DNA of 64,000 nt from NCBI RefSeq assembly GCF_900110255.1, contig NZ_FODD01000002.1, forward strand, positions 124,001-188,000, read 5' to 3'. This DNA is from Actinacidiphila rubida. Lineage in GTDB: Bacteria > Actinomycetota > Actinomycetes > Streptomycetales > Streptomycetaceae. The translations under genes and the position numbers were made by a program. Under the pieces are notes generated by a model. The model was given only the letters and a program-made list of their open reading frames with translations, was not told the origin of the DNA and did not search any database. Positions 42,777 through 62,991 of this stretch are shown piece by piece (position 1 is the first letter of the stretch; each line of letters starts with the position of its first letter).

Positions 42777-42841
42777 CGTCAGGCCCTTCCTGGTGAGGGC
42801 CGCACTCTAAGCGCTGTCCCGTGATCTCGCGAGGCTGAGGG

Positions 42842-43255: not shown

Positions 43256-43354
43256 GGGCGTGAGGCTCTCATGCCGAATCCGTCCGGGCGACCGAGATGT
43301 GTCTTGTCAGAGGCCAGCGGCCCCGCATCATGATCAAGATGAGACGATCTCGCC

Positions 43355-44124: not shown

Positions 44125-44210
44125 GCAAGAGGGCCGCGCAGCGACCAATCGTGATTGGGTCGATCCGAAGATCATTCACGGGACAGCGCTTAGAACTCCT
44201 ATCGGAATGC

Positions 44211-44730: not shown

Positions 44731-45155
44731 GCGGGCCGAGTTCAGGCGTCGCCAGCAGATGAGTGCGCATCCGAGAGTGAGGAAGGCTTCGTGGATGTCG
44801 TCGCGGATCTCCCAGCGGATCCGCAAGCGGCGGAACCAATGGAGGTGGGCGAACGCGCGCTCCACGACCCAGCGTTGGGTGCCCAGGCCGGAGCCGTGTT
44901 CGGTACCGCGGCGGGCGATCAGCGGCTTCACGCCCAGGTCCCACACCAGGCGGCGGTATTTGTCGTGGTCGTAGCCGCGGTCGGCTAGGACCACGTCCGG
45001 GCGGCGTCGGGGCCGGCCGCTTGCCGCGCACTGGTGGCACGGCCTGGAGGAGCGGGATCAGCTGGGTGACGTCGTTGCGGTTACCGCCGGTCAAGGTGGC
45101 AGCGAGCGGGATACCGGTAGCGTCGGTGATCCCCTGCCGACCGAGGCGCACCGAC
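44731..45155 (-). pseudogene. IS5-family transposase remnant
   Basis: C-terminal coding fragments in two frames: 'GRQGITDATGIPLAATLTGGNRNDVTQLIPLLQAV', then after a shift near 45010 'VVLADRGYDHDKYRRLVWDLGVKPLIARRGTEH' and 'RWVVERAFAHLHWFRRLRIRWE'. The N-terminal half and both IS ends are missing. Its right edge abuts the broken 5' side of the repSA remnant. Confidence 0.8.
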
Positions 45156-45159
45156 CGTC

Positions 45160-46115
45160 GCTGTGATCACGGGCGTCCGCTCGCATGTCCTGTTGCCCAC
45201 ACCAGTGCCGATCCTCGTAGCGGGCAACCGCTCTGCCCCGACTGCTACGACTACACCGGTCACGTCATCTGGCATGCCTACGCAGGACGTTTGTGGAAGG
45301 CGTTCACCGACAACCTGTACCACCACCTCGCCGCGCGAACGGGAGTGAGCCGGACGGCCCTCCGGCGGTCGGTACGCATCTCTTACGCCAAAGTCGCGGA
45401 GTACCAGCGCCGGGCGGCTGTCCACGTCCATGCGGTCATGCGCCTCGACGGAGCGACGGGAGCGGACAGCCCGCCGCCTCACTGGGCAGATGGCCGTCTC
45501 CTCGCTGATGCCGTTCCGACTGCTGCCGCGGCCGTCCGACTGACGGCGCCGTATCACCCAGCGCTCGGTGAGTACGAACTGCGTTGGGGCGATCAGCTGG
45601 ACGTTCGGGCTCTGCGCTCGGGCGACACGTCGGACGAGCTGAGCGATGACGCGGTGGCAGCGTACGTCGCCAAGTACGTCACCAAGGGGGCTGCCGAGTC
45701 GGGCGCCGGCCTGGACTACTCCGTCAAGGGACCGGCGGACATCGGGGCTGCCGTGGTCTCTCAACATGTTCGCGCGCTCATGGCTACCTGCTGGCGCCTC
45801 GGTGGCCTCCCGGAGTTGGACTCACTCCGTCTACGTTCCTGGGCCCACACTCTCGGCTACCGCGGCCACATCCTCACCAAGTCGCGCGCCTACTCCACCA
45901 CCTACGCCGCTCTGCGCGAAGAGCGCGGCGCTCACGAACGCGCAGAGAAGGATGACCTCGGGGCTCCAGACCTGGACGGGAGCACCGAATCCCAGTGGCG
46001 TTACGTGGGCTCCGGCCATACCGCCGGCGCGGCCCTTCTTGCGGCTGGCATCGCCGAAGACCTCGCGGCGAACCGCGAGATTGCCCGTGAGGCGCGGATG
46101 GCGGTGGGCCGTTGA
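45160..46115 (+). pseudogene. repSA: Replication initiator RepSA, 5'-truncated
   Basis: The frame encodes the C-terminal 310 or so residues of a RepSA-type initiator of actinomycete integrative elements: 'GQPLCPDCYDYTGHVIWHAYAGRLWKAF', 'AVAAYVAKYVTKGAAESGAGLDYSVKG', 'LRSWAHTLGYRGHILTKSRAYSTTYAALR' and 'WRYVGSGHTAGAALLAAGIAEDLA'. The N-terminal part is missing and replaced by a transposase remnant on the other strand; upstream in-frame codons to 45021 are antisense to that remnant. It is unlikely to be functional, so the element cannot replicate by itself. Confidence 0.85.
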
Positions 46116-46916: not shown

Positions 46917-48427
46917 TCAGGTCCAGATCGGGTTCTGCTCGATGTCGATTCTGCCGTAGTCGAACTGGCGACCCCTCTTCGTGGCCTCCTTGATCTTCAC
47001 AGCGGCGAACAGGAAGCGAAGGACCGCGTTCATGCGCTCGAAGTTCCCGGCGTCCTCAACGCTGCCCAGCTCGCTCGGGCGTCGGGGCCGGCGAGGCCAT
47101 CCAGAACCTCCGCTGTCGGCCGGACGATCATCTTCTGCTGAAGGCCCTGGATCCGCGCCTCGACGGTCTTGCGCATCTCGCGGTACTCCCGCGTGGTCAG
47201 TTCCTGGCTCTGCCACATGTCCTTGAGCTCGTCGAGTTCCTGCCGGTCGGCGTCGACGGCTGCCTGGTCCTCCGCTGACAACGAGGACGGGGAGGGCACC
47301 TCTGTGAGATCCAGATGCTCCAACAGGTACAGGGCGGCCTCGGTGACGAACTCGTTCACGGGGGCAGCCTTGATGGCGCGGTTACACCGGGGCACGTCGA
47401 GTCGGTGGGTGTGGTTGCAGATGTACTTGGTCGTTGCCCCGCCCATCGGCTTGCCGCATCCGGTGCACATCACCAGACCCCGCAGGAGGTAGAAGCGCCG
47501 CGGCTGCTCATCGTCGGGGGCCCACGTCGCGGCCCGGTACATACGTCGTGCCTTGACCTCCAGCCACATGCCGCGATCGATGATCGGCGGCCATTCACCG
47601 TCGCCGATCTCCTCGCCGCGGAAAACGCGGATGCCGGTGACGTGGCGGTTGCCAAGGAGTTCGCGCACACGAGGTGCGGTCCAGTGGCGGCCCTGTGCTG
47701 TCTTCACTTCCCTCGCATAGAGGTCCTGGGCGATCCGCAACGGGCTCTCCCCGTCCAGGTAGCTGCTGAAGACCTCGCGCACGATGGCGGCTTCCTCGGG
47801 GATGATCTGCGTCCCGGTCTTGTCGTAGCCGTACCGGCGTCGGCCTGTGTGCGGCCGTCCCTCCTTGGCCCGGTCGATCATGGAGTCGACGAGTCGTCGT
47901 GAGGTGTCGTCGCTGGAGCGGCAGGCATGCGCCACCTCGATGCGCAGGAAGAACCGGTCGTCCGGGTCGGCGAGATCGCGGCGGTTTGCCTGGCCGTGCA
48001 GCGTGATGTTGTGATCGTCGGCTATCTGCAGCAGCTCTTCAAGGTCGCGGGGCTGCCGCATCAGGCGATCGGGGTGGTACGTGAGCACGTGGCGTATGCG
48101 GCCCTGCCGGGCCTCGGCGAGTAGCGCGTCCCATCCTGGGCGCTGTCGCTTGCGTTGCCACGCTGACCGGTTGTTGTCCACGAAGACCTGGTCCTCGGCA
48201 ACGGTGAGGCCGAGTCGTTCGGCCACGTCGCGGCAGATGATCTCCTGGCGGTCGACGCCGGTCTGGTCGTCGTCGTTCGTGTGGGAGATCCGGCAGTAGA
48301 TCGCCGCGGTTTCCCCGGACCAGTCGACGCGGGCGTTCCTCACGCGCTGGCCACCGGCGGCCCGACTCGCGCGCACCGCACGCCGTAACCGCGCCTCGTC
48401 CTGCTGCTTGCTGTCGTCTGTCGTCAT
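46917..48427 (-). pseudogene. Large serine integrase with C-terminal frameshift
   Basis: Starts at ATG 48427. The resolvase-type catalytic domain has 'AAIYCRISHTNDDDQTGVDRQ' (nucleophile Ser) and 'RHVLTYHPDRLMRQPRDLEELLQ'. The recombinase domain is 'RRRYGYDKTG...IVREVFSSYLDGESPLRIA', and the zinc ribbon includes 'VMCTGCGKPMGG...CNHTH...VPRCNRAI'. A coiled-coil stretch follows. The frame stops at 47030, about 38 codons early; the normal end ('NFERMNAVLRFLFAAVKIKEATKRGR') continues in another frame to 46917, so one base was gained or lost near 47065-47080. The truncated 465-residue form may or may not be active. Confidence 0.88.
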
Positions 48428-48436
48428 GTGAAAAAG

Positions 48437-48463
48437 ACTATGAGCGCGGCTTGATCCACGTCA
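48437..48463. other. Right attachment junction of the element
   Basis: Contains the element arm ACTATGAGCGCGGCTTGA (48437-48454) and the 17-bp core (48447-48463), directly followed by DUF4291 coding sequence. It lies 10 bp upstream of the integrase start codon, the usual place for serine integrase attP. Confidence 0.85.
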
Positions 48464-48599
48464 TCCGGTCCCGCTGCCAGGCTGCCGGGAAGCGACCGTC
48501 CCGGGCCGCGGGAAGACCGATCTCCGGCCTGTACGCCTGGTAGACGGTGACCGTGGAGGCGGTGTAGCGGGCGCGGATCTGGTGCTTGGGTTCTGCCAC
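48447..48599 (-). pseudogene. DUF4291 gene, 5' part (split by the integrative element)
   Basis: From GTG 48599 the frame reads 'AEPKHQIRARYTASTVTVYQ', 'AYRPEIGLPAARDGRFPAAW' and 'QRDRMTWIKP', the conserved N-terminus of DUF4291 proteins. It then enters the element and stops at 48438. The rest is at 41501-41958. An IS-like unit lies 44 bp upstream of the start and may have displaced the promoter. Confidence 0.87.
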
Positions 48600-48686
48600 G
48601 GTGACCAGGGTGGGGGCACGGCTCGATGCGTGCCATCGAATTAGGGCCCATTCTATAAGTGGATCAAGGTCTGCCATGATCCACTC

Positions 48687-49566
48687 GTGGGACGTGGAGA
48701 TCTGACGAGTGAGCAATAGACCAGACTGGAGTCGCTGTTGCCGGTGGGCAGGAAGCCGGTACGGCCTCCGGTCTGGTCGAAGCGGCAGGTGATCAACGGC
48801 ATAGATTGGCGGACGCGGACCGGTTCGCCCTGGCATGACGTTCCCGCCCGCTACGGCGAGTGGGAGACCGTCTACCGTCTCTTCCGGCGCTGGCAACGCG
48901 ACGGCACCTGGAGCGGGATCCTTACCCAACTGCAGGCCGAGGCCGACGCAAAAGCCCTGATCACCTGGGACGTGAATGTGGACTCCACCGTCGCTCGATT
49001 TCATCAGCATGCGGCAGGCGCCCGCAAAAAAAAGGGGGGACCTGCAGCGGGACAAACAAGGCGGAGTCGCCAACGAGCCCGCCGACCACGGGCTCGGCCG
49101 ATCGCGCGGTGGTCTGATGACGAAGGTGCACCTGGCGGTCGAGCACGGACAGAAGCCCCTGTCATTCCTGGTCACCGCCGGTCAGCGGAACGACAGCCCC
49201 GAGTTCCAATCGGTCCTGGAGCGCATCCGGGTACCCCGTGTGGGCGTTGGCATGCCGCGCCGTCGACCGGACCGGGTGCGGGCCGATAGGGCCTACGGGT
49301 CCCGGGGCAACCGCGGCTACCTGCGCCGACGCGGAATCCGCTGCACGATTCCGGAGAAGTCCGACCAGGTCCGCAACCGCAGGAAGCTGGGCGCCTGTGG
49401 TGGTCGGCCGCCGAAGTTCGACAAGGCCGACTACCACGAGTGCCACGCGGTCGAATGCGGTATCAACCGCCTTAAGCGCCACCGGGCGGTGGCCACCAGA
49501 TACGACAAGCGTGCAGTCCGATACGAGGCCACTGTCACCATCGCTGTCATCGACGAGTGCCTTTGA
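48687..49566 (+). pseudogene. IS5-family transposase with amber codon and A8G6 frameshift
   Basis: From GTG 48687 the frame reads 'VGRGDLTSEQ' and meets TAG at 48717, where relatives carry Trp (TGG). It continues 'VINGIDWRTRTGSPWHDVPARYGEWETVY'. At an A8-G6 run (49026-49039) the reading moves by one base; the second part is '[19 protein letters not shown]', '[20 protein letters not shown]' and '[20 protein letters not shown]', ending at 49566. The slip could be genuine transcriptional or ribosomal slippage, but the amber codon makes this copy defective. Confidence 0.82.
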
Positions 49567-49574
49567 CCAGGTTG

Positions 49575-49982
49575 CTACGGGAAAACAGGATTCCCGTCCT
49601 CGCCGGTCCACGGCTTTCGTGCCGGCTGCCGGCCTACGGCTTGCCAGACGGCATGTGCCGCAGCGAACTTCACATCACCAGGGCCCGTGTCTACTGGCGA
49701 AGTGACGATCCCGACGAGAGATACACGGACCCCACGGGCTTCTTCAGGCAGCTGCATGAGCGCATACCAGGCGCCTTCCAGCGCCTCTGCCTGGACCTCA
49801 TGATCGTCGGTGTGGCTGGTGTCATTGAGGCGGCCGTATGCCTGACTGCGCCGCCCGAACACGTCCCCACCCATCAGCACCTCTGGCTCGGCGGATGCGG
49901 CTCCACGAACGGTGACTTGGGCAAACCGCGCCCACCGACTCGTCTGACGGAGATGCCTGTGCGTTCCTTCCACGAGCCGCAT
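49575..49982 (-). CDS. Hypothetical cargo protein inside the second IS-like unit (135 aa)
   Basis: 135 residues from ATG 49982; a GTG at 49973 has better spacing from GGGAG. The product reads 'ALEGAWYALMQLPEEARGVRVSLVGIVTSP' and 'VDTGPGDVKFAAAHAVWQAVG', clearly protein-like, but no family is recognised. It ends 8 bp from the convergent transposase stop and starts 39 bp inside the right terminal repeat. Size and setting are compatible with an accessory or immunity-type role (inference). Confidence 0.6.
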   Translation of the reverse strand: MRLVEGTHRHLRQTSRWARFAQVTVRGAASAEPEVLMGGDVFGRRSQAYGRLNDTSHTDDHEVQAEALEGAWYALMQLPEEARGVRVSLVGIVTSPVDTGPGDVKFAAAHAVWQAVGRQPARKPWTGEDGNPVFP

Positions 49983-50042
49983 TCTCCCGCAGATTCGTGA
50001 AGCACCCGGGCTCGGCAAGAGATCCACTTCTAAAACAGGCCC

Positions 50043-50527: not shown

Positions 50528-50927
50528 CCAGCAGTTCGCGAGCCCTTTGCAGACGAGGCCCGGCAGTTCCTCGCCGCCCCCAGGGCCACCGACTCGCCGC
50601 GCTGTTCGAGCTAGCGCTGCGCACCGGGCTGCGCAAGGGCGAACCCCTTGGGTTGCGCTGGGAAAACCTCAACCTCGACGCGGGCAGCGCCAGCATCCGC
50701 CGCACCCTCCAGCGCACCCCAGGGCGTCGAACTAGCTAGTCGTCATCGAGGAACTCCTCGGCCACACCCACATCGGTGTCACCGCCACCGTCTATGCCCA
50801 CGTCCGGCTCCGCCTCCAGCGCGACGCAATCGACCTCCTCAGCCGTGCCCTCCGCCACCCCGCCGAGGACGCCGCCCAGCCCGACGACGGCGACGAACCG
50901 CTGCTCTGTGCACCACCCGTCCGCTGA
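50528..50927 (+). pseudogene. Tyrosine site-specific recombinase remnant
   Basis: Three pieces of one integrase in successive frames: 'REPFADEARQFLAAP', then 'LAALFELALRTGLRKGEPLGLRWENLNLDAGSASIRRTLQRT' (with the first catalytic Arg in 'LRTGLRKGE'), and after a deletion the C-terminal 'VVIEELLGHTHIGVTATVYAHVRLRLQRDAIDLL' (HTH...Y, with the nucleophile Tyr). The segment with H-x-x-R is missing. It is clearly dead. Confidence 0.85.
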
Positions 50928-50965
50928 CGCTGCCGTCAACAACTGCCGTCAGACACCCCAGAGGG

Positions 50966-50989
50966 CCCACCGGAATTACATCCGGTGGG
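50966..50989 (-). terminator. Hairpin downstream of the immunity gene
   Basis: CCCACCGGA with its complement (50966-50974 and 50981-50989) and a 6-nt loop, 42 bases beyond the immunity gene stop on the minus strand. Confidence 0.5.
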
Positions 50990-51030
50990 GCCACTTGATG
51001 GGGTCGCCCAGAGGCTTCGTACCCGACAAC

Positions 51031-51258
51031 CTAGAGTTCGATGGCCCGGTATGAGAGGGCTTCCTGAACAGCGCGTTCGTCCGATAGGTCAGGGCTCCGG
51101 TGGAACATAAGGTCAGTCCACGCCGGATGCGGGATGAGCCTCTGCAACTCATCGATCAACGCAGCGCACTGATCGTCAGAGAAGCCTCCCCGTCGGATCA
51201 TCGACACCAACTCGATAGCCCTCACCTGCCTACGGTCAGGATCAACCAACCAGCTCAC
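51031..51258 (-). CDS. Colicin E/S-pyocin-type (Im9-like) immunity protein
   Basis: 75 residues from GTG 51258, whose first bases overlap the toxin stop codon (GTGA), so translation is coupled; a TTG at 51249 is an alternative start. The pattern 'ELVSMIRRGGFSDDQCAALIDELQRLIPHPAWTDLMFHRSPDLSDERAVQEAL' follows the four-helix Im2/Im7/Im9 family: a short helix, then E/L-rich helix 2, the conserved 'HP..(S/T)DL' turn, and helix 4. The Tyr-Tyr of the classic 'DLIYYP' contact is replaced by Phe-His. It should bind and neutralise the nuclease tip of the RHS protein. Confidence 0.83.
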   Translation of the reverse strand: MSWLVDPDRRQVRAIELVSMIRRGGFSDDQCAALIDELQRLIPHPAWTDLMFHRSPDLSDERAVQEALSYRAIEL

Positions 51259-54200
51259 CTCCCATAATGGAATCCAGGATCCAGTATCTCCGAGTGTAGT
51301 CGAGGGGTCAAAATCACGATGTTATCCATGTCGTAGACCCCGCCACCAGCCCATATGGGCATCGAATGGTGAAGAACATAATTAAATTGACCTGGCATTG
51401 ATTGCCCGGAGGCCGTGAACGGTGATCCGCCATCCTGCATTCGCGTGACATTGGACACAGAGAAGGATGAAGCCAGATCTGAATCGTTCCCAACAGTCTT
51501 CCAGAATGCCTCACGGAAGGCATTGAAGCTACTAAAGGTCTGACCGCGCAGCTGATCTGCTACCTGCCCTGGGATACGACCAAAATTACCTTGAGATCCC
51601 CTCAGCCAGCCACTACCAGCGTCCGCCAAACCATATCCTCCGGTCGCAGGACCAGGAGTGTTTCGAATCTGCGTTGCACTGCGAGATCCGCCAATTCCAC
51701 AAAGCCCGTCATCGGTATTGTGAACCAAGACCGGCGTGTCGCCCGCCTCCACATAGTACGTGTGCAGGCCCGCGATGGTGAGGTCGTACGTGGTGGTGGT
51801 GGCGTGGTAGAGGCGGAGGCCGGTGACCTCGGCGGTGCCGGTCGGGGTTTGGAGGACGTCGCCCGTGTGGAGGTCGCCGGCCTCGACGAAGGAAGAGCGG
51901 GTCGCGTCGTAGAAGGGGTGGTGGAAGGTCGTGGTGAGTGTGGCGCCGCCGGCCGTGGCCTCGGAGGTCGCGGACGTGGGTGCGGACGCGGGCGCGGTGT
52001 AGGCGACCGGAGTCGGTGCCGCGGCGTCGTGGTGGGACACGCCCAACGTCGTGGTGACCAGGGCGGCGGAGGCCGCGAGGCCGAGGGCGGACTTGCGGAG
52101 GATGCGCCGGCCCAGGCCGGGCGTGGTCGACGTCCGCTTCCCAGCCGTCCCGGCCGGTGCCACCGTCACGTCCACGAAGTCGTGGTCCGTGGTCGTCACG
52201 ATGACCGCCTGGACGGTGTGGGTCTGGGCGCCCTTCGCCCCCGGAACGGCGTCCTTGACCTGGTCGCCGACCTTGACCTGGGAGATCGCCTTGGTGGAGC
52301 CGTCGGCCATCACCACGCCCGTCGAGCCGACGAAGCTGTGCGGGCCCGAGCTCTCACAGACGTTGCGTCCGCCGCCGAGTCCGGCCAGTGCCCCACCGAT
52401 ACCGCCGCCGATCGCGCCGGAGACCGTGCCGGAGGCCACCGCGTCTCCCGCGCCCGACCAGGTGCACCCGGACTGGCTGTCGGAACAGGTCAGGCCGTAG
52501 GTGATGGCGCTGGCCGTGCCTCCGGAGATGCCGCCGACGGCGGCACCCTCCAGCGTGCTGGTGACCAGCTTCGGCAGGACGTCGCCGAGCGCCGATTCGG
52601 CGAGCTTGCCACCGAGCGCACCGCCGATGCCACCGCCGACCGCACCGCCCACCGCCCCGAGGAAGGCGGACTCGCCGAACGACGCGACCGAGCAGGCGCC
52701 GTGCTGTCCCTCGGCGCACTTGGCGCCCTGATCGACCAGGCCGCTGGCCGCTCCCGCGAGCGCCCCGCAGCCGATGGCGCCGGGCACGGAGAGCGTGCCG
52801 CCGCTGGCTCCGGTCACCACCGCCTCGCAACCCGCGAAGACCACGGCCGACACCGCGAAGGAGGCGATGGCCGCCGCGTGGTTCTTGAAGTACGTGGCGC
52901 TGGTGTTGACCGCCTTCGCGACGGCTTGGTACGTGCTGTGCGCGGCGTGGCTGACGACGTTCTGCGCGTTGCGTACCGCTGCCGCGGCCTCCCGTTTCGC
53001 CGCCGCCTTGGCATCGGCGATCTCTTTGTTGAAGGCCGCGATCTGCCGGTCGAATGCGGCGATCTGGCGTTCCATGGCGGCCACTTGCCGGTTGAAGGCC
53101 GCTTCCGCGCGGTGGAGTCTCTCGGTGGCCGCTTCGTAGATCGCGCTCGCGTAGCTGCTGACCTTGCTGGCAACGTAGTGGTATGCGCTGACGACCCCGT
53201 GGTAGATCGACTTCGCGGTGTTGACGACCGCGTGGTACACGGTCTTGGCCGTGTTGACGACCGCGTGGTAGACGGTCTTCGCCGTGTTGACGACCGCGTG
53301 GTACGTGCTGGAGGCGGCGTGGCGGACCGCGCTGAGGAAGCCGTGGCCGGTGGGGTCGACGCCCGTCATCGGGTTGTCGTTGGCGTACGCGAACGGGTTG
53401 GCGTTGGCCGGGTTCGGCATCGGGGACTGCGCCACGGTGTCGCGGTTCATGAACTGGCCGGTCGCCGGGTTGTACCAGCGGGCGGCCATGTCGACCTTGC
53501 CGGTGCTGCCGTCCGTCCAGCCCGATTGGTAGCCCAGCCGGCCCAGGGGTGTCCCGTTGGTGCCGGTGACCTTGCCGAGCGGGTCGTAGCCGGTGGAGGC
53601 GGAGACCGCCGTGCTCCCGGCGGTGAAGTCGCCGACCACGTCGTCGTGCTGGTCGGTCAGGGCGAGCACCGCGCCGGCCTGCGTGCCGCCTGTGGCACCG
53701 ACGCCGACCAGGGCGCCGTCGGGCGTCCAGGAGTACGAATTGGCGCCGTCGGAGGCGGTGTTGGTGTCGGTTCCGCCGTAGGAGAAGGTGACCGAACCGC
53801 CGCCGCCGGTGTTCGTGTCCGTGATGACGCGGCCGAGCGCGTCCGTGACGTAGCGCTGGGTGCCCTGGCTCGTCTGCTGTCCGTAGGCGTCCGAGGCGAA
53901 CGACGCGGTGGTGCCACCCGCGGACTGCTGGGTCAGCGTGCCGCGGGCACTGTAGGTGTAGGTGTTCTGGCCGTCACCGGTGAGCTGGTCACGGGCGTCG
54001 TAGGTGTAGACGTCGGAGCCGGCGCGGGTGCGGTTGCCGGAGTCGTCGTAGGCGTAGGCGGTGGTCGTGCCGCCGTTGGCCCAGGACGTCAGGCGGTTCG
54101 CCCAGTCGTAGGTGTAGGTGTTGGCGCCGGCGCCCGCCAGGCCCGTGGTGGTCTTGCCGGTCTCGTTGTTGTTGCCGTCGTAGCCGTAGCCGATGGAGGC

Positions 54201-57200
54201 GACGGTGCCTCCGGACGGTGTGGTCAGGGTGTCGCTGGTGAGCCGGTGCAGGTGGTCGTACCCGTAGGTGCGCGTGTCACCGCCGGCGCCGTACTGCACG
54301 GTGGACGGCTGCGAGAGCGTGTTGTAGTGGTAGGTGAGCTGGGTTCCGGTGAGCGGATCGGTGAGGGTGCCGAGCCGGTCGGCGACGTCGTAGGTGTAGC
54401 CGGTGGTGCCGGCCGCGTCGCTGCGGCTGGTGGGCAGCCCGTCGCCGTTGTAGGTGAAGGAGCTCGAGGAGCCGGACCCGTCGGCGCCGAGGAGGTCGCT
54501 GCGGTCGTCGTAGCGGAAGGTCTCGTCGGTGGCGGGTGTGCCGGTGCCGAGGGCGGCGGTGGCCGCCTCGGTCATCCGGTTGTCCAGGTCGTAGTGGAAG
54601 GACCGGCCGGCGGTGTCCGCCTCGGCGCCGGAGCCGCTCTGCGACGTGACGTTGCCGAGGTTGTCGTAGCCCGTGGTGGGGGCCACCCGGCCCGGCTCGG
54701 TCTGGGTGACCGCGCGGCCGGCGGCGTCGTAGGTGGTCGTGGAGGTGGAGTCGGCCGGGCTGCTGTAGTCGTAGGTGCCCGTGGTCACGGACGGTTCGAT
54801 CACCGACTCGGGCAGGTTCCACGTGGTGTAGGTGTACAGGGTCTTGTTGCCGCGGCCGTCGGTGTAGCGGGTGCCGTTGCCGGCCGCGTCGTAGCCGAAC
54901 GAGGTGGTGATGGAATGCCCGGCGTCCACCGGCTGGACCTCGCCGGTGACCTGTCCGAGCGCGTCGCGGGTGAACGTCGTGGTGTGGTGGTTGCCGTCGG
55001 TGGACGACTTCAGGTTGCCGGCGGCGTCGTAGGTCGCCGACTGGCCGGCGAGCACCGTCTGGTGATCGGTGTCCAGTGAGGTGACCTGGAGCGGGTCGCC
55101 GAGCTGGTCGTATCCGACGGTGTTCATGGTGCCGTCGGGCTGGGTGACGGAGGTGGCCCGCCCCTGCGCGTCGTACCCGGTCCTGGTGGTGTTCCCGGCC
55201 GCGTCGGTGACCTGGGTGGTCTCGCCGACGTGGTCGTAGCCGTAGCTGGTCGTGACGCCGTCGGCCGTGGTGGTGCCGGCCAGGAAGGCGCCGCCGGGGT
55301 TCAGTGTGGAGGCGGTGTAGTCGTTGTGCGCGGTGAGCGTCGCCGGGGTGGGGTAGCGCTCCAGGACGGTGGAGGTCAGCGGGCGGCCGAGGAAGTCGTA
55401 CGTGGTCTGGGTCTGGCCGCCCGTCGGGTCGGTCTGGGTGCGGGCCTCGCCGTTCTCGTCGTACGTGGTGCGGGAGACGCCGCCGTTGGCGTCGGTGGTC
55501 TGCGCGAGGTCGCCGAGCTGGTCGTACAGGGTGTGGGTGGTGTGCTGGAGCGGATCGGTGACGGTGGCGATGTTGCCCGCGTCGTCATAGGTCCACGTGG
55601 TGGCGGCGTCGTGGATGACCGGTGAGCCGTCCGGCGGGGTGTAGTCCGGTGCGACGACGCCGGTCCGCCGGCCGCCACCGTCGTACGTCGTGGTGACCGT
55701 GTCGCCGTTGGGGTCGGTGGACTCGGTCGGCTCGCCGAACGTGTTGTAGCCGGTGGTCGTCGTGGGGTGGACCAGTGCGGGGGCGCCGCCGTCGTGTTCG
55801 GCGTTCACCGCCGGGGCGCTGGTGAGCACCAGCTGTCCCGCTTCGTCGTAGGAGTAGTCGGTGACGTTCTGGTCCGGGTCGGTCATGCTCTTCGGCAGGC
55901 CGCGCTGGTCGAGTTGGAACGACGTGGTGGCCTCGTCCGAGGAGGCGGTGGTTCCGCCGGAGCGGCCCTTGGCGTACAGCGCGGAGATCTCCGCGGTCGT
56001 CAGGTCGCGCTGGTAGACCTGCACGTTGTCGACCGAGCCGTGCACGTCGTCCTTGATCGTCGTCCCGTCGGCGAGGGTGACGCCGCCGATGGCCAGCGGG
56101 CCGGTGCCCTGCCACGGAGCGGGGTTGGTGCCGCTGCCGGCCAGGACGCCGTTGACGTAGAGGCTGATGGCTCCCGTGCCGGCGTTGTACTGGCCGACCA
56201 GGTGCGTCCAGGTGTTCAGCACGGGTGGGGTGGAGGCGGCGGCGTCGTAGAACGCGGAGGGCGCTGCCACGTCTTGGCTGCCGAAGTGCAGGTCGTAGGC
56301 CTTGCTGCCGGCGGAGTACTGGAGGTAGAAGGCGGCCCGGGTGGTTCCGCCCTGCGACACGAACGTGTAGTTCGTGGCGGTGTCGGGGATCTTCACCCAC
56401 GCCGACACCGTGTAGGAGGCCGTGGCGTCGAGTACCGGGCCGTTGGTGGCGATGTCGCCGTCGGCGGCGTTGCCGGTGAACGAGGCGGCGCCGTCGGACC
56501 AGGTCACGCCGGGTCCCGCGGTCGCGGTGTGGCCGTCGCCCGAGGCGTCGGGCACGGACCTGCCGGCGGTCTGGTCGAGCTTCCACCAGCCGTCGGGGTG
56601 GCCGACGCCGTCCTCCTGGACGGAGGAGCTGGTGACGTTGCCCATCGGGTCGTAGGTGGAACTGGTCGTGTGGGTCTGCCCGGTGGAGTCGCTGAGGGTG
56701 CTGGTGGCGACCATGTCGTCGGGCGTGTAGGACACCGTGGTGGTGCGGTTCACCCCGGTCGGGTCGACGGTCGTCGACGTGGTGCGGTCGGCGGCGTCCA
56801 CGGCGGATGTGGTCGTGGTGGCGCCGTTGTTGCTGACCTGCTTGATCAGGTTGCCCGCGCCGTCGTAGGTGTTCGCCTGCTCGACGAACGTCTGCGTACC
56901 GGTCGGGTCGGAGCGGGTGGCCGTCGCCTGGAGGCCGTTGTCGGTGTAGGTGTACGACGTGGTGTTGCCCATGGCGTCGGTGAGCGACGCCAGCCGGCCC
57001 GCCGGGTCGTACGCGCGGGAGGACTCCACCAGGTCCCGCGGGGCGGAGGGGCTGACCGGGTCGCCGGTGTAGCCCTTGAGCGTCTGGGTCAGCAGGTTGC
57101 CGGTCGCGTCGTAGTCGAACTGGGTGAGGTTGCCGGCGGCGTCGGTCTCGGTGGCCTTGTTGCCGTACGCGTCGTACGTGAGGGTGCTCGTGCTGCCGGA

Positions 57201-60200
57201 GGGTTCCTCGCTGGTCTTGACCTGGTCGAAGGGCGTATAGGTGTACTTCTGGACGCGGGGGCTGTCACCGCCGCTGAGGTCGCTGACGGTCTGTGAGCTG
57301 ACCATGCCGTCGACGTCGAAGACGGTGTCGGTGCGGGCCTGGTGGGCCGCTCCGGTGACCCGGTCGGTGACCTGCGGATCGGTCTGCGAGGTGACCTGCG
57401 AGTCGCCGTCGTAGGTGTAGGAGGTGGTCAGCCCGGCCGGGTAGCTGTCGGAGGCCTCGGTCTTGCTGAGCGGCCGGCCGAGGTTGTCGTAGCCGAAGGT
57501 GGTCACCTTCCCGTCGGGGTCGGTGACCTTGGCGATGTCGCCGTTCTTGAAATAGGTGATCGTGGTGGTGGCGCCACCGGGTGAGACGGTCTTGTAGGGC
57601 AGGCCCTTCGGGGCGAAGCCGCCGTCGGCCGCCGCGACCGTGGTCCCGTCGGTGTAGGTGACGCCGGTGGTGCGGCCGTGCGGGAATCCGCTGACCGGCG
57701 GGGTGGTCACGCCGGTGCGGTTGCCGGCCGCGTCGTAGCTGTAGGACGTGAGGTACGCCGGGTCGGTGGCCGAGGCGGACCGGCCGTCACGTGTGGTGGC
57801 GGGCAGGTCGTTCTGCGGGTTGGGCGTCAGGGCGGCGCTGGTGTCGTCCGGCAGGTAGGTGCTGTAGGTCGTGGAGCACTTGAGGGCGGTCTGGTCCTGG
57901 CAGCTGGTCTGGGAGACCTGGTTGCCGCGGACGTCGTGGCCGATCGTGGTCACGTCGCCGTTGGGGTCGGTGACGGTGTGCTCGAAGCCGCCGGAGTCGT
58001 AGCCGTACGAGGTCGTGTGACCCGTGCCGTCGGTCTGCGAGATCATCCGGTAGCTGTTGTCGGGGTCGAACCGGTACGTGTTCGACTTCCCCTGGGGATC
58101 GGTGACCTGCACGGTGTCCACCGGCGACAGGCCACCGGAGTTCTGGCCCGCGGCGAAGTGCGCGGCGATGTCCTGGCCGGACAGCGGGTGGGCGTACAGG
58201 GCCGCCTCGGCTATGGAGCCGTTGAAGTAGCTGACCGCACCGGGGGTGTTCACCCAGGCGGTGGCGAAACCCGCGCCGAGATAGAGGCGGTTGGTCGACG
58301 CGTCGTTGGGGGCGCCGGTGTAGGTGCCCTGGGCGATGCCGTCGATGTAGAGGGTCTGTGCGGTACCGGTGACGGTGAGCGCGGCATGGTGCCATTTGCC
58401 GTCGTCGACCAGCACTTTGGAGCCGAACGCGGTGCCGCCGGTGCCGCTGCCGCTCCAGAAGTGGCCGTGCATCTTCCCGTCCGTACCGACGTAGAGGATC
58501 GGGTCCCAACTGCCGCTGGCGGCGGTGGCGCCGGCGATGGCCACGGACTGGTCGGAGAGGATCACGCCTGGTGACGTCGTCTTGAACCACGCCTCCACTG
58601 CCCGGTCGTTGCTCGCGTGCAGCAGGGTGTCGGACAACTGGACGTAGGAGCTGGTGCCGTTGAAGCCCGCTGTCGTGTGGTCGGCGAAGGGGCCGGCCGT
58701 GCCGAGGGTGGTGTTCGCGTAGGTGCCGGGGGTGGACTCGGTCTCGCCGACGGCCTGCGAGGCGCCGGTCGTCTCCCCGAGCCGGTAGTAGCCGAACGGT
58801 GCGGAGCCGAGGACCGAGGACCGGTAACCCAGGCTGGAGCCGGTGTACTTCGGGGCGGCCATCGACCAGCTGCCGCCGTTCTCGTCGGTCAGGCTGTCGA
58901 CCGACGAGGTCTCCGGGTCGTAGCCGACCTGCGCGAACACCTTGCCCGAGGGCCGGACCACCTTGTTGAGCAGGCTCGCGGGGGTGGTGGCGGCCTTGTT
59001 GAGCGCGGTGACGTCGGCCTGGACGAGGGGGCGGCTGTAGTAGGAGACGTCCGCGATGGAGCCCTTGAAGTACGTGGCGTAGGCCGTCGTGGAGTTGAGG
59101 TGCGCCTGGTCGGGCCATGCAGCGCCCTGGTAGCCGGTGCCGACGTAGACGTCGGTGAACAGCCAGGGCTGGTTGCCGGTGAACCCGAAGCTGCCGTACC
59201 CGGCCGACGTACCGGACTGGACGCCGTCGAGCCACATCGTCTGCTTGGTCCACGAGCCGGCGAGCACCACATGGTGCCAGGCGTTGTCGGTGACCGCGGC
59301 GGCCGAGGTGATCGGGGTCGGCTTCTCGCCGTACCAGAGCAGGCCGTTGAGCTTGCCGTCGGAGCCGACGTACAGCGACGGCGTGAAGTTGCCCAGCGTC
59401 GCGGTCGCCTTGATCGGCATGTCCGAGAAGGAGAAGATCACGCCGTTCGCGGTGGACGTCTTGAACCACAGCGAGATCGACTCCGAGGAGGAGGTGCCCA
59501 GTTCCAGGTTCGGCAGCTTCGCGTACGACGAGGTGCCGTCGAATCCGGCCGCCGTGGCACCGCCGCCGGTCAGGTGGCCGGGCTGGCCCAGGGTCACCGC
59601 GTTGTAGGCGGCGTTGTCGGCGCCCTCACGCGGCAGGACCGCGCTGACCGCGGTGGTGCCGGAGGTGTCCGACAGCGGCCAGTACGAGTCGGGACCGAGG
59701 TCGAGGGTCTGGCTGTGCTCCTCGTTCGCCGTCGTGTAGCCGTAGGTGGTGCACGCGGAGCCGTCGGCGGTGTCGTCCGGGGAGCAGACCTTGGTCAGCT
59801 GGTTGCCGGTGTACGCGTACGTCCATGTGAGAGCGGTGCTCGACTGCCCGGCCGTCACCGGGTCGGTGGTGACGGTCGAGACGTGCGCGCTGCCCCCGGA
59901 GGGAGTGGCCCAGACGACGTGCAGGGCTCGGCCCGAAACGGCCGAGGTCATCGCCGTGACCTGGTTCCCGGTGTAGGTGAAGTTCTCCGCACGGCCGTTG
60001 GCGTCGGTGATCGAGGTGATGCCGTAGCCGCCGGAGCCGAGTGCGTGCGTGAACAGGTAGACCGTGGCGTTCTTGTCCGTCAGCGAGTAGCCGCCGGTGA
60101 CCGTGGCGAACGTGGCGAACCGGCCCTGGGGCGGGGTGAACGACCCGTTGGAGTTCTTGCCGTAGCCGACCGCCGAGCCGTCCGGGTAGGTGACGACGAC

Positions 60201-62390
60201 GCTGGTGACCGCGCCGGTCGAGTCGTACTGCTCGGTGGCGTGCGCGTCCAGCACGCTCGACCAGCCCGCGCCGAACGCCCCCGCGGTGCGCGGGTCCAGG
60301 GAGTTGTAGTCACGGGTGATGGTCAGGGAGGGGCCGGGCGTGGAGACGTTGGCGTCCACGGCGGAGGTGGTGTAGTTGCCCGTGGCCGGGTCGTAGCCGT
60401 GGCCGTCGGTGTTCTGCGACAGGCCGGAGGTGATCAACGGCTGCGGCACCTGGGTGGTCAGTTCCTGCCAGACCGGGCCTGGTGAGTAGTTGGTGCCGTC
60501 GTACGCCTGGACTTCCCAGTAGTACGGCTTGCCCCAGGCCAGTTTGCCGTTGGGGACGGTGTACGAGTTCGCCGTGATGGTCCCGGAGTCGACGACGAGG
60601 GTGCCTGCGGCGTCGTAGACCTGGAAGTCGTACTTCTGCGTGACCGCCAGGTTGGGGTCGATGATCGCCACGGCCGACAGCACCGGAGTGTGCGTGGTGA
60701 CGGTGGAGTTGTTGGCCGGGGCGGTACTCACCACCTGCGGAAGCGTCGCTCCCGTGTAGGTCAGGTTGAGCGTGGGGAAGTACGACACGTCGTAGATCGA
60801 GCCGAACTGCTTCCAGTGCAGGGCGTCGTTGGTGGCCGCGTACACCGCCAGACCGTGGTCGGCGGAGGCGCCGGTGGCCCACGAGTTGAAGGTGGCGGCC
60901 GCCAGGGTCACGGTCACCCAGTCGCCCTTGCTGACGTCAACGGCGCTGTTGGCGCAGGCGTTGGGCGTGCTCGGTGTGGCGTTGCCGATCGAGGCTCCGT
61001 GGCCGGGTCCCGGGTAGGTGGTCACGCCGGACGGGGTCCAGTCGGCGCTTGCGGGCGCGACGTCGAACCGCTCGGCGGTGCACGTGGACGATGACACGGC
61101 GTACAGGTTGAGCGTGGCCGCGGAGACGGTGATGTGCGACCCGTCGACGCCGACCGTGGGGAACTGCAGGTAGGAGACCGCGGAGTGGGTGCCGGAGTCG
61201 TAGGAGCCGACCTTGATGGTCTGCTCCATCGAGTGGTCGCCGTCCGCGCCCGACTCGGCGTATGTGGTGATGGCCTGGGCACCGCCGAAGGAAGGATCCA
61301 CGGTGACGGGGAAGACCCGGTTCGCCGCGTGCAGCCAGTTCGGGTCCAGCGTCATGTGCAGGGTGGAGCGGCCGTGCGACTGCCTGAGCGTGTAACGGAC
61401 GGCGTGAGTGGTGGCGTGTTCGCGGGACACGGGGTCGACGTGGGAGTCGAAGGCATAGCCCGCCGGGATCGTCCCGACCAGCTTTCCCGCGCTGTCGCGC
61501 AGGCCCACGGACCCGTCGGATCCGACCGACGGGGTGAGCCCGTCGAGATCGAGCGGGAAGTCCCAGGAGGTGCCGGCCTGCGGCGAGTTCAGGACCAGTG
61601 ACTCCTTCACGCCGACCGTGGTCGGCTGCGCGGTCAGGTCCGTGTGCGGGAGCACCCCGGGGTAGGTGACGGTGGCGCCGGACACCTCGGGTGACACCGT
61701 TGCCGCGCCGTTCAGACCGTAGCCGAAGCGGTGGCCGCCGATCGGCATGGCGACCAGGTCGTGATCGGCGCCGTTCGCGCCGAAGCTCACCTTGGCGGAG
61801 CCGGCGCGCTCCTCCCACCGCCCGTCGGCCGCGGGCACCACCGTGGTGTCGATGGGCTGCCAGCTTCCGTCCGCGGCACGGTAGTTGACGGGCAGCGGCG
61901 AGTAGCGACGGCTGTAGGAGCCGTCGGCGTTCTGGAAGTACGTGGAGGTGGCGGTCGACTTGGCCGGCACGCGCGTGCTGGTGCGGGCGTCGTATCCGAG
62001 CCGCGCCCCGCTGCTCGGCCCGGCCGCGACCTTGCGGGCGTAGGACTGAGGTGCGGCCGGCAACTCGCCCTTGCCCGGGTGCCGTTGCTTCCCGACGCCG
62101 CCTCTCGCCTTGGTGGCGGCGGACGAGGCGGAGTGGCTGCGGCCGGCAGCCGTACCGGACTGCTGGCGCGGCAGCTTCCCCCACTGCGGGGAAGCAGGAT
62201 GCGCCAGCCACGCGGCCACGCTCTTCAGCGTCGGCACCGACAGGGCCGGAAATCCCCGGTCGACGGCGTACGACTCCTCGCCGGTGAACAGCATCGCGAA
62301 GGCGACGAGGGCCAGCAGGGCGACCGCCCTGTGCAGACGACGGTGGAAGCGAACCCGTGCGGGGGACCGACGGTACCGACGAGAGCGCAT
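51255..62390 (-). CDS. Giant RHS/YD-repeat polymorphic toxin with LamG, HINT and colicin-E-type HNH nuclease
   Basis: About 3,711 residues from ATG 62390, with AGGAG six bases upstream; a TTG at 62396 is less likely. A membrane/signal segment ('AVALLALVAFAMLFTG') lies at about 24-40. LamG-type domains are near residues 970, 1270 and 2000 ('ESISLWFKTSTANG', 'AVEAWFKTTSPGV', 'YTVSAWVKIPDTA'), with YD repeats between and after. The RHS core closes at about 2,990 ('RWYNPATGQFMNRDTV...DPTGHG'). Then come a repeat/coiled-coil region (3,030-3,135), Gly-zipper hydrophobic segments (3,170-3,335), a HINT domain (3,350-3,550) ending 'YYVEAGDTPVLVHN', and the nuclease tip (3,555-3,711). The RHS shell should encapsulate the toxin, HINT release it, and the tip cut target-cell DNA. 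Confidence 0.92.
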   Translation of the reverse strand: MRSRRYRRSPARVRFHRRLHRAVALLALVAFAMLFTGEESYAVDRGFPALSVPTLKSVAAWLAHPASPQWGKLPRQQSGTAAGRSHSASSAATKARGGVGKQRHPGKGELPAAPQSYARKVAAGPSSGARLGYDARTSTRVPAKSTATSTYFQNADGSYSRRYSPLPVNYRAADGSWQPIDTTVVPAADGRWEERAGSAKVSFGANGADHDLVAMPIGGHRFGYGLNGAATVSPEVSGATVTYPGVLPHTDLTAQPTTVGVKESLVLNSPQAGTSWDFPLDLDGLTPSVGSDGSVGLRDSAGKLVGTIPAGYAFDSHVDPVSREHATTHAVRYTLRQSHGRSTLHMTLDPNWLHAANRVFPVTVDPSFGGAQAITTYAESGADGDHSMEQTIKVGSYDSGTHSAVSYLQFPTVGVDGSHITVSAATLNLYAVSSSTCTAERFDVAPASADWTPSGVTTYPGPGHGASIGNATPSTPNACANSAVDVSKGDWVTVTLAAATFNSWATGASADHGLAVYAATNDALHWKQFGSIYDVSYFPTLNLTYTGATLPQVVSTAPANNSTVTTHTPVLSAVAIIDPNLAVTQKYDFQVYDAAGTLVVDSGTITANSYTVPNGKLAWGKPYYWEVQAYDGTNYSPGPVWQELTTQVPQPLITSGLSQNTDGHGYDPATGNYTTSAVDANVSTPGPSLTITRDYNSLDPRTAGAFGAGWSSVLDAHATEQYDSTGAVTSVVVTYPDGSAVGYGKNSNGSFTPPQGRFATFATVTGGYSLTDKNATVYLFTHALGSGGYGITSITDANGRAENFTYTGNQVTAMTSAVSGRALHVVWATPSGGSAHVSTVTTDPVTAGQSSTALTWTYAYTGNQLTKVCSPDDTADGSACTTYGYTTANEEHSQTLDLGPDSYWPLSDTSGTTAVSAVLPREGADNAAYNAVTLGQPGHLTGGGATAAGFDGTSSYAKLPNLELGTSSSESISLWFKTSTANGVIFSFSDMPIKATATLGNFTPSLYVGSDGKLNGLLWYGEKPTPITSAAAVTDNAWHHVVLAGSWTKQTMWLDGVQSGTSAGYGSFGFTGNQPWLFTDVYVGTGYQGAAWPDQAHLNSTTAYATYFKGSIADVSYYSRPLVQADVTALNKAATTPASLLNKVVRPSGKVFAQVGYDPETSSVDSLTDENGGSWSMAAPKYTGSSLGYRSSVLGSAPFGYYRLGETTGASQAVGETESTPGTYANTTLGTAGPFADHTTAGFNGTSSYVQLSDTLLHASNDRAVEAWFKTTSPGVILSDQSVAIAGATAASGSWDPILYVGTDGKMHGHFWSGSGTGGTAFGSKVLVDDGKWHHAALTVTGTAQTLYIDGIAQGTYTGAPNDASTNRLYLGAGFATAWVNTPGAVSYFNGSIAEAALYAHPLSGQDIAAHFAAGQNSGGLSPVDTVQVTDPQGKSNTYRFDPDNSYRMISQTDGTGHTTSYGYDSGGFEHTVTDPNGDVTTIGHDVRGNQVSQTSCQDQTALKCSTTYSTYLPDDTSAALTPNPQNDLPATTRDGRSASATDPAYLTSYSYDAAGNRTGVTTPPVSGFPHGRTTGVTYTDGTTVAAADGGFAPKGLPYKTVSPGGATTTITYFKNGDIAKVTDPDGKVTTFGYDNLGRPLSKTEASDSYPAGLTTSYTYDGDSQVTSQTDPQVTDRVTGAAHQARTDTVFDVDGMVSSQTVSDLSGGDSPRVQKYTYTPFDQVKTSEEPSGSTSTLTYDAYGNKATETDAAGNLTQFDYDATGNLLTQTLKGYTGDPVSPSAPRDLVESSRAYDPAGRLASLTDAMGNTTSYTYTDNGLQATATRSDPTGTQTFVEQANTYDGAGNLIKQVSNNGATTTTSAVDAADRTTSTTVDPTGVNRTTTVSYTPDDMVATSTLSDSTGQTHTTSSTYDPMGNVTSSSVQEDGVGHPDGWWKLDQTAGRSVPDASGDGHTATAGPGVTWSDGAASFTGNAADGDIATNGPVLDATASYTVSAWVKIPDTATNYTFVSQGGTTRAAFYLQYSAGSKAYDLHFGSQDVAAPSAFYDAAASTPPVLNTWTHLVGQYNAGTGAISLYVNGVLAGSGTNPAPWQGTGPLAIGGVTLADGTTIKDDVHGSVDNVQVYQRDLTTAEISALYAKGRSGGTTASSDEATTSFQLDQRGLPKSMTDPDQNVTDYSYDEAGQLVLTSAPAVNAEHDGGAPALVHPTTTTGYNTFGEPTESTDPNGDTVTTTYDGGGRRTGVVAPDYTPPDGSPVIHDAATTWTYDDAGNIATVTDPLQHTTHTLYDQLGDLAQTTDANGGVSRTTYDENGEARTQTDPTGGQTQTTYDFLGRPLTSTVLERYPTPATLTAHNDYTASTLNPGGAFLAGTTTADGVTTSYGYDHVGETTQVTDAAGNTTRTGYDAQGRATSVTQPDGTMNTVGYDQLGDPLQVTSLDTDHQTVLAGQSATYDAAGNLKSSTDGNHHTTTFTRDALGQVTGEVQPVDAGHSITTSFGYDAAGNGTRYTDGRGNKTLYTYTTWNLPESVIEPSVTTGTYDYSSPADSTSTTTYDAAGRAVTQTEPGRVAPTTGYDNLGNVTSQSGSGAEADTAGRSFHYDLDNRMTEAATAALGTGTPATDETFRYDDRSDLLGADGSGSSSSFTYNGDGLPTSRSDAAGTTGYTYDVADRLGTLTDPLTGTQLTYHYNTLSQPSTVQYGAGGDTRTYGYDHLHRLTSDTLTTPSGGTVASIGYGYDGNNNETGKTTTGLAGAGANTYTYDWANRLTSWANGGTTTAYAYDDSGNRTRAGSDVYTYDARDQLTGDGQNTYTYSARGTLTQQSAGGTTASFASDAYGQQTSQGTQRYVTDALGRVITDTNTGGGGSVTFSYGGTDTNTASDGANSYSWTPDGALVGVGATGGTQAGAVLALTDQHDDVVGDFTAGSTAVSASTGYDPLGKVTGTNGTPLGRLGYQSGWTDGSTGKVDMAARWYNPATGQFMNRDTVAQSPMPNPANANPFAYANDNPMTGVDPTGHGFLSAVRHAASSTYHAVVNTAKTVYHAVVNTAKTVYHAVVNTAKSIYHGVVSAYHYVASKVSSYASAIYEAATERLHRAEAAFNRQVAAMERQIAAFDRQIAAFNKEIADAKAAAKREAAAAVRNAQNVVSHAAHSTYQAVAKAVNTSATYFKNHAAAIASFAVSAVVFAGCEAVVTGASGGTLSVPGAIGCGALAGAASGLVDQGAKCAEGQHGACSVASFGESAFLGAVGGAVGGGIGGALGGKLAESALGDVLPKLVTSTLEGAAVGGISGGTASAITYGLTCSDSQSGCTWSGAGDAVASGTVSGAIGGGIGGALAGLGGGRNVCESSGPHSFVGSTGVVMADGSTKAISQVKVGDQVKDAVPGAKGAQTHTVQAVIVTTTDHDFVDVTVAPAGTAGKRTSTTPGLGRRILRKSALGLAASAALVTTTLGVSHHDAAAPTPVAYTAPASAPTSATSEATAGGATLTTTFHHPFYDATRSSFVEAGDLHTGDVLQTPTGTAEVTGLRLYHATTTTYDLTIAGLHTYYVEAGDTPVLVHNTDDGLCGIGGSRSATQIRNTPGPATGGYGLADAGSGWLRGSQGNFGRIPGQVADQLRGQTFSSFNAFREAFWKTVGNDSDLASSFSVSNVTRMQDGGSPFTASGQSMPGQFNYVLHHSMPIWAGGGVYDMDNIVILTPRLHSEILDPGFHYGR
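51258..51730 (-). other. Toxin tip: colicin E9/S-pyocin-like HNH DNase domain
   Basis: The last 157 residues align by eye with the E-colicin DNase domain: 'GQVADQLRGQTFSSFNAFREAFWKTVGNDSDL', 'GGSPFTASGQ', and 'LHHSMPIWAGGGVYDMDNI'. The His-His pair (about 3674-3675), the HNH Asn (about 3690) and the next His (about 3699) are kept. The last metal-ligand His of E9 ('HIDIH') is Leu here ('HSEIL'), though another His follows five residues later. The segment is visibly less GC-rich than the rest of the gene, as in swapped toxin tips. Confidence 0.85.
51735..52350 (-). other. HINT (Hedgehog/intein-type) pre-toxin domain
   Basis: Begins 'GSTGVVMADGSTKAISQVKVGDQV' and ends 'LTIAGLHTYYVEAGDTPVLVHN', the start and end blocks of PT-HINT domains, which autocleave to free the toxin. 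Between them is an unusual hydrophobic, TM-like insert ('SALGLAASAALVTTTLGV') with Ala/Pro-rich flanks. 'TTFHHPFYD' is the expected central His block. Confidence 0.8.
53218..53307 (-). repeat. 33-bp tandem repeat within the RHS gene
   Basis: Two full 33-bp units (53218-53250, 53251-53283) and one partial unit (to 53307) encode an 11-residue repeat (AVVNTAKTVYH). They lie just after the RHS core and lead into an Ala/Gln/Arg-rich coiled coil. Confidence 0.85.
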
Positions 62391-62991
62391 CCACAACTCC
62401 TGTTAACAACCTGCACACCAGTCCTGCATGGGCGTTGTGAATATGCGGGTCAGAGGCGGAGTTGATCCATACCTGCCAGGATTTATTGCCTGCTATTTAC
62501 GTTCAACGGGCCTGCGGAGAATGGGGTACTGACGGTGGATGAACTCAAGGCGACCGCAAGCGGGACGCCCGGCGACTCCGCGTCCGGGCCACGTGCGGCG
62601 CCGGCCGCCGACGCGACCCGTGCGACGAGGGGTCACGTGGGGAGGGGGCGTGTGGAGATCGCCACGGTCGCGCGTCCCCGACGGGACGTCAACTGACGTC
62701 TAAGACACGTCATTCGGGCCTGCGAGGGCCACCCCCGGACACGCCCGCGGAGGGGACGTCGCCCCCCACGGGCAGGCCGGAACGTCGGGGCGGACACGGC
62801 ACGGTCGCGGTGGCGGCGGACGCAGATCTGCCCGGCGTGCACGCACGTATGGGTCCCGTAGCCATCGAGGTGACCGCGGCCGTGGAGCCGGCCGCATTCG
62901 CTCGGAACGCGACCGCGGGCCCGCGCGTCGCATCGCGTCGTGCGGACCGCGGCGGCCGTAGGGTCGAAGCCGTCGCGGAGGAGGGCTTCTG
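62391..62991. other. Intergenic region with the RHS gene promoter
   Basis: About 600 bp. The part at 62400-62520 is clearly AT-richer than its surroundings and should hold the minus-strand promoter of the toxin gene. A plus-strand frame from GTG 62535 to 62696 (53 codons) exists but lacks a ribosome site and reads as Arg/Ala-rich; I do not call it. Confidence 0.45.

Follow-up and report, generated by a model that had tools for sequence, protein, structure and literature searches.

A colicin-type DNase tip and its likely immunity gene on an Actinacidiphila rubida RHS toxin, and a candidate integration site in the HINT codons

Introduction

How a polymorphic toxin comes to change its C-terminal toxin domain (tip) on a constant carrier is a long-standing question, and the usual answer is recombination with orphan cassettes. 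The question is raised by an RHS toxin gene in a 64,000-nucleotide stretch of Actinacidiphila rubida DNA (contig NZ_FODD01000002.1, positions 124,001 to 188,000; hereafter the window, meaning the whole stretch that was analysed). We consider it quite likely that the last 150-odd codons of this gene encode a DNase domain of the colicin/pyocin family, that the overlapping 75-codon gene encodes what is likely an Im-type immunity protein, and that the pair was probably the cargo of an integrative element, which would have entered a 15-bp site in the HINT codons and so given the carrier its present tip. An original prediction for this DNA had proposed a DNase/Im pair, tip exchange and an enterobacterial source; the first two stand, the third does not, and the integrase junction and the 15-bp HINT site had been missed.

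The carrier ends in a colicin/pyocin-type domain

The RHS carrier gene lies on the reverse strand (51255..62396) and encodes 3,713 residues from a TTG codon. The length of 3,711 residues given by the original prediction is correct when counted from the ATG at 62390, two codons in, and its description of the carrier as actinobacterial is also supported: a genome of that genus has an exact 100-mer in common with the Actinacidiphila bryophytorum record L007. The mycelial habit named in the original prediction would follow from this genus. The encoded protein has a hydrophobic N-terminus, 3 LamG domains, 23 RHS-repeat stretches, a PT-HINT domain and the C-terminal DNase tip. The C-terminal part of PT-HINT (51717..51950, reverse strand, residues 3483-3560) matches PF07591 (E 4.3e-10, 40.4 bits against a cut-off of 27.7) and the intein C-terminal region TIGR01443 (E 0.0021). 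It ends in PVLVHN directly before the TDD of the toxin, which is the C-terminal HN expected of PT-HINT at this place. The PF07591 match is confined to the second half of the HINT domain because an Ala-rich hydrophobic insert (residues ~3400-3470) splits it; comparable inserts are found in loci L096 and L098. The candidate N-terminal nucleophile Cys of HINT lies within CESSGPHSF, further upstream than in proteins P0021 and P0022.

Beyond the VHN codons, the tip (51255..51716, reverse strand) matches Col-Pyo_DNase (PF21431) over 118 residues near the C-terminus of the RHS protein (E 1.4e-33, 116.2 bits, cut-off 27), a family of the bba-Me DNase fold, and it also matches solved colicin/pyocin DNases with E-values down to 1.2e-29. 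These matches confirm the predicted HNH DNase-family domain. The immunity gene (51031..51258, reverse strand; 75 residues from GTG, a TTG slightly further in being another possible start) begins within the RHS gene, with a 4-base overlap at the RHS stop.

The tip and immunity gene form an exchanged cassette

The tips of related carriers were compared by inspecting the last 350 residues of the 120 best-matching of 583 carriers found. The window tip was present in none of these 120, whose own tips, by their Pfam accessions, are deaminase, EndoU, REase and others. A ColE7-type C-terminal tip is thus borne on a carrier whose relatives bear other tips, as in the Tox-ColE7 systems, and the wide exchange of toxin tips that had been predicted is upheld.

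A carrier of the same genus (genome G043), 77% identical to that of the window and decayed at its 5' end, bears a different tip. Homology between the two stops with the final base of the VHN codons (51717) and restarts at 50989, 41 bases past the immunity stop. Between these homologous flanks, the cassette measures 727 bp in the window (50990..51716, tip and immunity gene) versus 1,039 bp in G043, whose tip and small neighbour gene have no Pfam match and no NCBIfam name. In the 34 kb around the G043 carrier, only the carrier and an integrase tail match the window at E<=1e-10, and therefore the chromosomal place need not be the same.

An integrase junction lies downstream of HINT-tip cassettes

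The flank that follows the immunity gene contains a GC-rich inverted repeat (50962..50992; stem-loop z -4.9 on one strand and -4.6 on the other, 79% mean column conservation), at which a scan found no T-tailed terminator, and then the junction block GTCTGACGGCAGTTGTTGACGGCAGCGTCAGCGGACG (50918..50954, reverse strand), the only copy in the window. Positions 50918..50955 are ~94% conserved over 17 other loci, versus 40% for 50992..51030 just past the immunity stop. The block runs into the 3' tail of a tyrosine-integrase gene (50736..50927, forward strand), which is convergent with the RHS gene and truncated, with its stop at 50925-50927 and an in-frame TAG just before the remnant. Intact homologous integrases of 442-444 residues (PF00589) are present in loci L159, L195, L211 and L216.

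The search for the junction DNA in the genus (35 genomes) gave 54 best matches. Fourteen follow an RHS-core match within 5 kb, 12 of them in the same orientation, and none precedes one within 15 kb. A HINT end, recognised by its VHN motif, was found <=1.5 kb upstream on the same strand at 38 of the 54, compared with 2, 4 and 0 in three control directions. In the family, 130 of 297 genomes have a junction match at E<=1e-9. Thirty of these family loci were read; 26 are from other genera, and a HINT end was seen in 22 of the 26 (one more had 13 upstream bases only; controls 0, 1, 0). No two of the 26 tips read from these loci were the same. With a 24-bp junction pattern, 28 sites were recovered in 11 genomes, 10 of the 11 being hit, and the reversed control gave 0. 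HINT ends stand at 25 of these 28 sites (controls 0, 2, 0), an integrase-like open reading frame (ORF) lies on the opposite strand at 21 and was not seen at 7, and RepSA occurs <=6 kb away at 12 junctions on their integrase side and at 4 on their toxin side.

Intact elements are bounded by direct repeats in HINT codons

Two loci, L216 and L217, each contain two junctions 7.6-7.8 kb apart as direct repeats. The intact elements there are bounded by direct repeats of CACACGTACTATGT, a 14-bp core coding for HTYY of HINT, with cores 7,550 and 7,430 bp apart. Between the repeats are the integrase, RepSA (PF20199, E 1.2e-139 and 1.9e-92), a GntR regulator and other genes; no FtsK/SpoIIIE-type Tra was found among the 10 ORFs scanned, a subset of the ORFs of both elements. 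Past the far repeat is an orphan ORF that starts with a HINT end and has a different tip. Locus L218, in the same genome as L216 (G099), holds the same element locus inverted, ~0.37 Mb away, and was not counted as a further element, but its sites are still within the 28.

The corresponding core of the window, CACACGTACTATGTG (51750..51764, reverse strand), is an exact 15-mer coding for HTYYV of HINT, occurs once in the window and is the proposed attachment (att) core. Where HINT ends are paired, their homology begins at the 14-bp core in L216, L217, L133 and L135; L136 is the exception, its two HINT copies being homologous far beyond the core. Orphan HINT copies have a conserved arm upstream, GCGAAAACGCAGG or near-identical, then an 18-base spacer and the core. 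The 45-bp arm-spacer-core pattern, drawn from six loci and searched with up to 3 mismatches, was found in 56 of 297 family genomes and not at all in the reversed control. Thirty arm-core loci were read: their ORFs are all different, 26 continue from the core in frame into a HINT end, and 11 show a junction in the available DNA. In a sample of the order, the pattern was present in 24 of 197 genomes, all of the same family, and in none of 15 genomes of other families; outside the family, two HINT ends in Actinoplanes (L003) contain the core.

Within the genus, the 15-mer was found in 21 of 35 genomes (38 matches; reversed control, 1), and 28 of the 29 matches read continue in frame as a HINT end. 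Among 67 HINT ends selected by their junction, the first Tyr is TAC and the second TAT in all 67, and 60 match the core over their first 14 bases; the window RHS gene as a whole uses TAC and TAT at 169:9. Of 13 HINT ends retrieved by way of their carrier protein, 11 also have TAT at the second Tyr. The core codons are more constant than the protein sequence requires. A second locus of the same genome (contig C53) reads as a carrier core, two arm-core-HINT tip cassettes and a junction, that is, three stacked cassettes. This locus (L098, L152) holds a second LamG-RHS-HINT gene with an open frame of 3,755 residues and another tip. Directly observed are the repeats and their constant position, the genes present and the association with toxin cassettes.

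Proposed site-specific switching of the tip

Given this arrangement, we lean towards the view that pSAM2-like elements of Streptomycetaceae attach at the HINT codons of polymorphic toxins, each carrying a HINT end, a tip and an immunity gene, that integration re-arms the RHS protein and keeps the old warhead as an orphan, and that the DNase/Im pair of the window is one such warhead. Integration itself, the direction of events and mobility are what we infer from the arrangement. The attP would be ordered arm, core, HINT end, tip, immunity gene, junction and integrase, and the integrase would recombine the core of the element with that of the carrier. Because the core codes for HTYY(V) in frame, the carrier would become fused to the HINT end, tip and immunity gene of the element, and the old tip and its immunity gene would end up behind the far core. 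Cassettes could later be lost or rearranged by homologous recombination among the stacked copies. By analogy with known families, the carrier would be exported, HINT would free the tip after VHN, the tip would cut the DNA of a neighbour using a metal site in which the third histidine stands five residues further on, and the producer would be protected by its immunity protein. If this is true, an integrase, a fixed 15-bp in-frame site and an element bearing tip and immunity gene would turn tip change into a testable recombination reaction, which would account for orphan HINT-tip arrays, the joint travel of tip and immunity gene and the spread of warheads among streptomycetes.

Ordinary polymorphic-toxin evolution could produce part of this picture if the DNase/Im pair had been swapped by homologous recombination and the integrase were a passenger sharing the flank. 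Several points speak for such a course and weigh against an integrase-driven exchange: long homologous HINT and core regions are common to carriers, the HINT copies of L136 are alike far past the core, seven of the 28 junction sites lack an integrase-like ORF, and the available text of Zhang 2012 (PMC3482391) attributes tip swaps to recombination with toxin-immunity cassettes. Against it, orphan HINT homology begins at the same 14-15 bp in four loci, with the arm at a fixed 18-bp spacing, the Tyr codons of the core are fixed at the DNA level, and the junction stands on one side of the cassettes. We regard this course as unlikely.

The tip belongs to a widespread branch of DNases

A scan of genome contigs for the tip gave 55 loci; L049 and L052-L055 were dropped for a broken frame or an incomplete motif, and 51 tips, including that of the window, were compared. 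Nuclease bacteriocins have the motif HHX14NX8HX3H (Sharp 2017), whereas the window tip reads HHX14NX8HX8H. This HX8H form is shared by 38 tips, 12 have HX3H and one (L045) has neither. All 48 sequences of alignment A2 share H104, H105, N120, H129 and H138 (model numbering). The residues R96, E100 and H131 of colicin E9 are all replaced in the window tip, and H138 takes over from the H131 position as third histidine, displaced by five residues.

These replacements, together with the decay of the flanking element, would fit a degenerate, inactive leftover of a DNase. We consider this improbable: the E100 position holds Val in 26 of 38 HX8H tips and Glu in 2, against Glu in 8 of 12 HX3H tips, the R96 position holds Arg in 2 of 38 against 6 of 12, the five motif residues are invariant, and the frame is open and accompanied by an immunity gene. 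A tip killed by a frameshift is likewise unsupported because both the H131 change and the HX8H spacing occur throughout the branch.

All 12 HX3H tips are from Pseudomonadota; 11 fall in one gamma-proteobacterial clade (support 94/94) and the twelfth (L038) forms a long branch. The HX8H tips span Actinomycetota, Bacteroidota, Bacillota, Pseudomonadota and candidate phyla. The window tip groups with Streptomyces malaysiense (support 100/95), and the five rows closest to it by path all come from Actinomycetota. On this tree an enterobacterial origin of the tip was rejected, and the "enterobacterial pair" of the original prediction is not borne out. The tip is uncommon: two of the 35 genus genomes have it, and so do 9 of 394 in the family, 8 of these above the cut-off. 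Nor is a ColE7-type tip on a Gram-positive RHS toxin a new kind: in the text available, Zhang 2012 (PMC3482391) already describes Tox-ColE7 with Imm-ColE7 on RHS carriers, Firmicutes included, and Sharp 2017 (PMC5536347) the same histidine spacing in Bacillus nucleases with SUKH immunity. The tree and these published cases place the window pair, as judged from sequence, in an actinobacterial set whose members are of a known kind. HX8H DNases with Im-like partners are widespread in Actinomycetota, Bacteroidota, Bacillota and Pseudomonadota, and given this spread the colicin pair may represent a single lineage within a more ancient system. In Sphingomonas (P0015), the DNase tip is also carried by a two-partner-secretion haemagglutinin of 5,187 residues.

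The overlapping gene probably encodes an Im-type immunity protein

The window immunity protein scores 14.2 bits against PF01320, under the curated cut-off of 21.2. Its best immunity-protein match is the designed Imdes7 (E 3.4e-4), and unrelated designed helical proteins are listed too (E 2.6e-4 to 1e-3). NCBIfam has no name for it or for two relatives, and Pfam none for the neighbours of L033, L038 and L048. PF01320 is found in the relatives P0016, P0018 and P0019 and not in P0017 and P0020, and at E<=0.01 in 30 of 49 proteins of the mixed set A3 (10 of them canonical neighbours). A hidden Markov model (HMM) trained solely on 10 gamma-proteobacterial neighbours was then run against 2,014 ORFs of the 55 loci. 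It gave 34 non-training matches at E<=1, each lying 3' to a tip ORF of the same strand, no more than 468 nt from the stop of that ORF, far more than chance would place there. An Im-like neighbour is present at 31 of 37 HX8H loci. Tip and immunity distances correlate (r 0.74 for all 44 pairs, r 0.56 for 34 HX8H pairs; p 1e-4, shared ancestry still included). An immunity gene directly 3' of the toxin is typical of Tox-ColE7 systems, and the 4-base overlap in the window and the order in relatives agree with this. The predicted Im-type neighbour, weak when taken alone, is rendered likely by PF01320 in its relatives and by the placement of the 34 HMM matches. A SUKH immunity protein was discarded for the window: no SUKH family is among the Pfam or NCBIfam matches and the neighbour is Im-like.

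LamG and RHS repeats are surface-type modules, which would suit an RHS protein serving adhesion or development with a tip not aimed at neighbours, and no delivery system was identified, though no search for one was made, but tip turnover coupled to an immunity gene is the hallmark of conflict systems and leaves this alternative very improbable.

Extra immunity genes were seen elsewhere: five Im-type genes along one locus of Enterobacteriaceae (L047, 1321-4954) and strings of them in L050 and L051. In a locus of Clostridia (L037, 4354-4974), the Im-like protein extends into ~140 more residues.

Comparison with known systems

The DNases of colicins E2/E7/E9 and pyocins S2/AP41/S8 (PF21431) have in common with the window pair the fold, the HH-N-H core and the Im-type neighbour directly downstream. 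They differ in having HX3H and bacteriocin import domains, whereas the window tip has HX8H, an RHS-HINT carrier and no Arg/Glu at the R96/E100 positions. The receptor and translocation domains of bacteriocin carriers (Sharp 2017) are replaced in the window carrier by RHS, LamG and HINT. The Tox-ColE7/Imm-ColE7 systems in the available text of Zhang 2012 (PMC3482391) are closer, with a ColE7-type tip on RHS and other carriers and Imm-ColE7 or SUKH immunity; the printed list for Tox-ColE7 names Bacteroidetes, proteobacteria and firmicutes and, unlike the window host, not actinobacteria. That text mentions recombinases near polyimmunity loci, contains the word "integrase" 0 times and describes no integrase boundary. 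The Bacillus HHX14NX8HX8H nucleases, as far as the accessible text of Sharp 2017 (PMC5536347) describes them, have identical histidine spacing and are SUKH-linked, whereas the window tip has an Im-like neighbour.

As for the element, the pSAM2-type actinomycete integrative and conjugative elements (AICEs) outlined in the available portion of Ghinet 2011 (PMC3218068) share the tyrosine integrase, RepSA and GntR regulator with intact L216/L217. The intact relatives thus show the tyrosine integrase, RepSA and direct repeats at both ends that mark AICEs, whereas the window has only a broken integrase tail. The same portion places tyrosine-integrase AICEs mostly at tRNA 3' ends, the pSLS sub-family excepted, whereas the L216/L217 type lies inside the HINT codons of a toxin gene and carries a tip and immunity gene; its main text contains neither "toxin" nor "rhs". 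Mycobacterium abscessus prophages, in the text available of PMC8092301, carry whole WXG-100 toxin-immunity cassettes beside attachment junctions, a position resembling that in the window. There the entire toxin is phage-borne, whereas an element of the window type would contribute no more than the end of a toxin already resident in the chromosome. The Umb toxin particles of Streptomyces (PMC11062931, in its available part) likewise combine a large polymorphic toxin, HINT and linked immunity, but on an ALF-repeat carrier with partner proteins, whereas the window carrier is RHS. The literature examined, partly in excerpt and with subscription papers and preprints outside its scope, gave no account of elements integrating into HINT codons and none of a toxin gene whose tip is changed through an attachment site within it, which is weak evidence of absence.

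Probable remains of a decayed element in the window

The window would represent the carrier-side end of such an element, decayed and with its far end missing; no far-end core or arm was found in the window. A remnant of a RepSA (pSAM2) replication-initiator gene (45021..46115, forward strand; PF20199, E 1.6e-106) lacks profile positions 1-120. It is 41-43% identical to RepSA of two intact elements, and its weight as proof of an element body in the window was lowered to possible; by its sequence it may belong to the tip-bearing element or to another. Transposase and recombinase genes lie at 42-50 kb of the window. A large serine recombinase gene (reverse strand) and a DDE transposase piece occupy 47030-50000, downstream of the integrase tail, where GC is 65-67%; it is mostly 69-78% outside 39-52 kb. 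At 42807-44193 is an insertion sequence-like transposase segment, and a 90%-identical copy (L098, 7503-8890) lies beside the other RHS locus of this genome.
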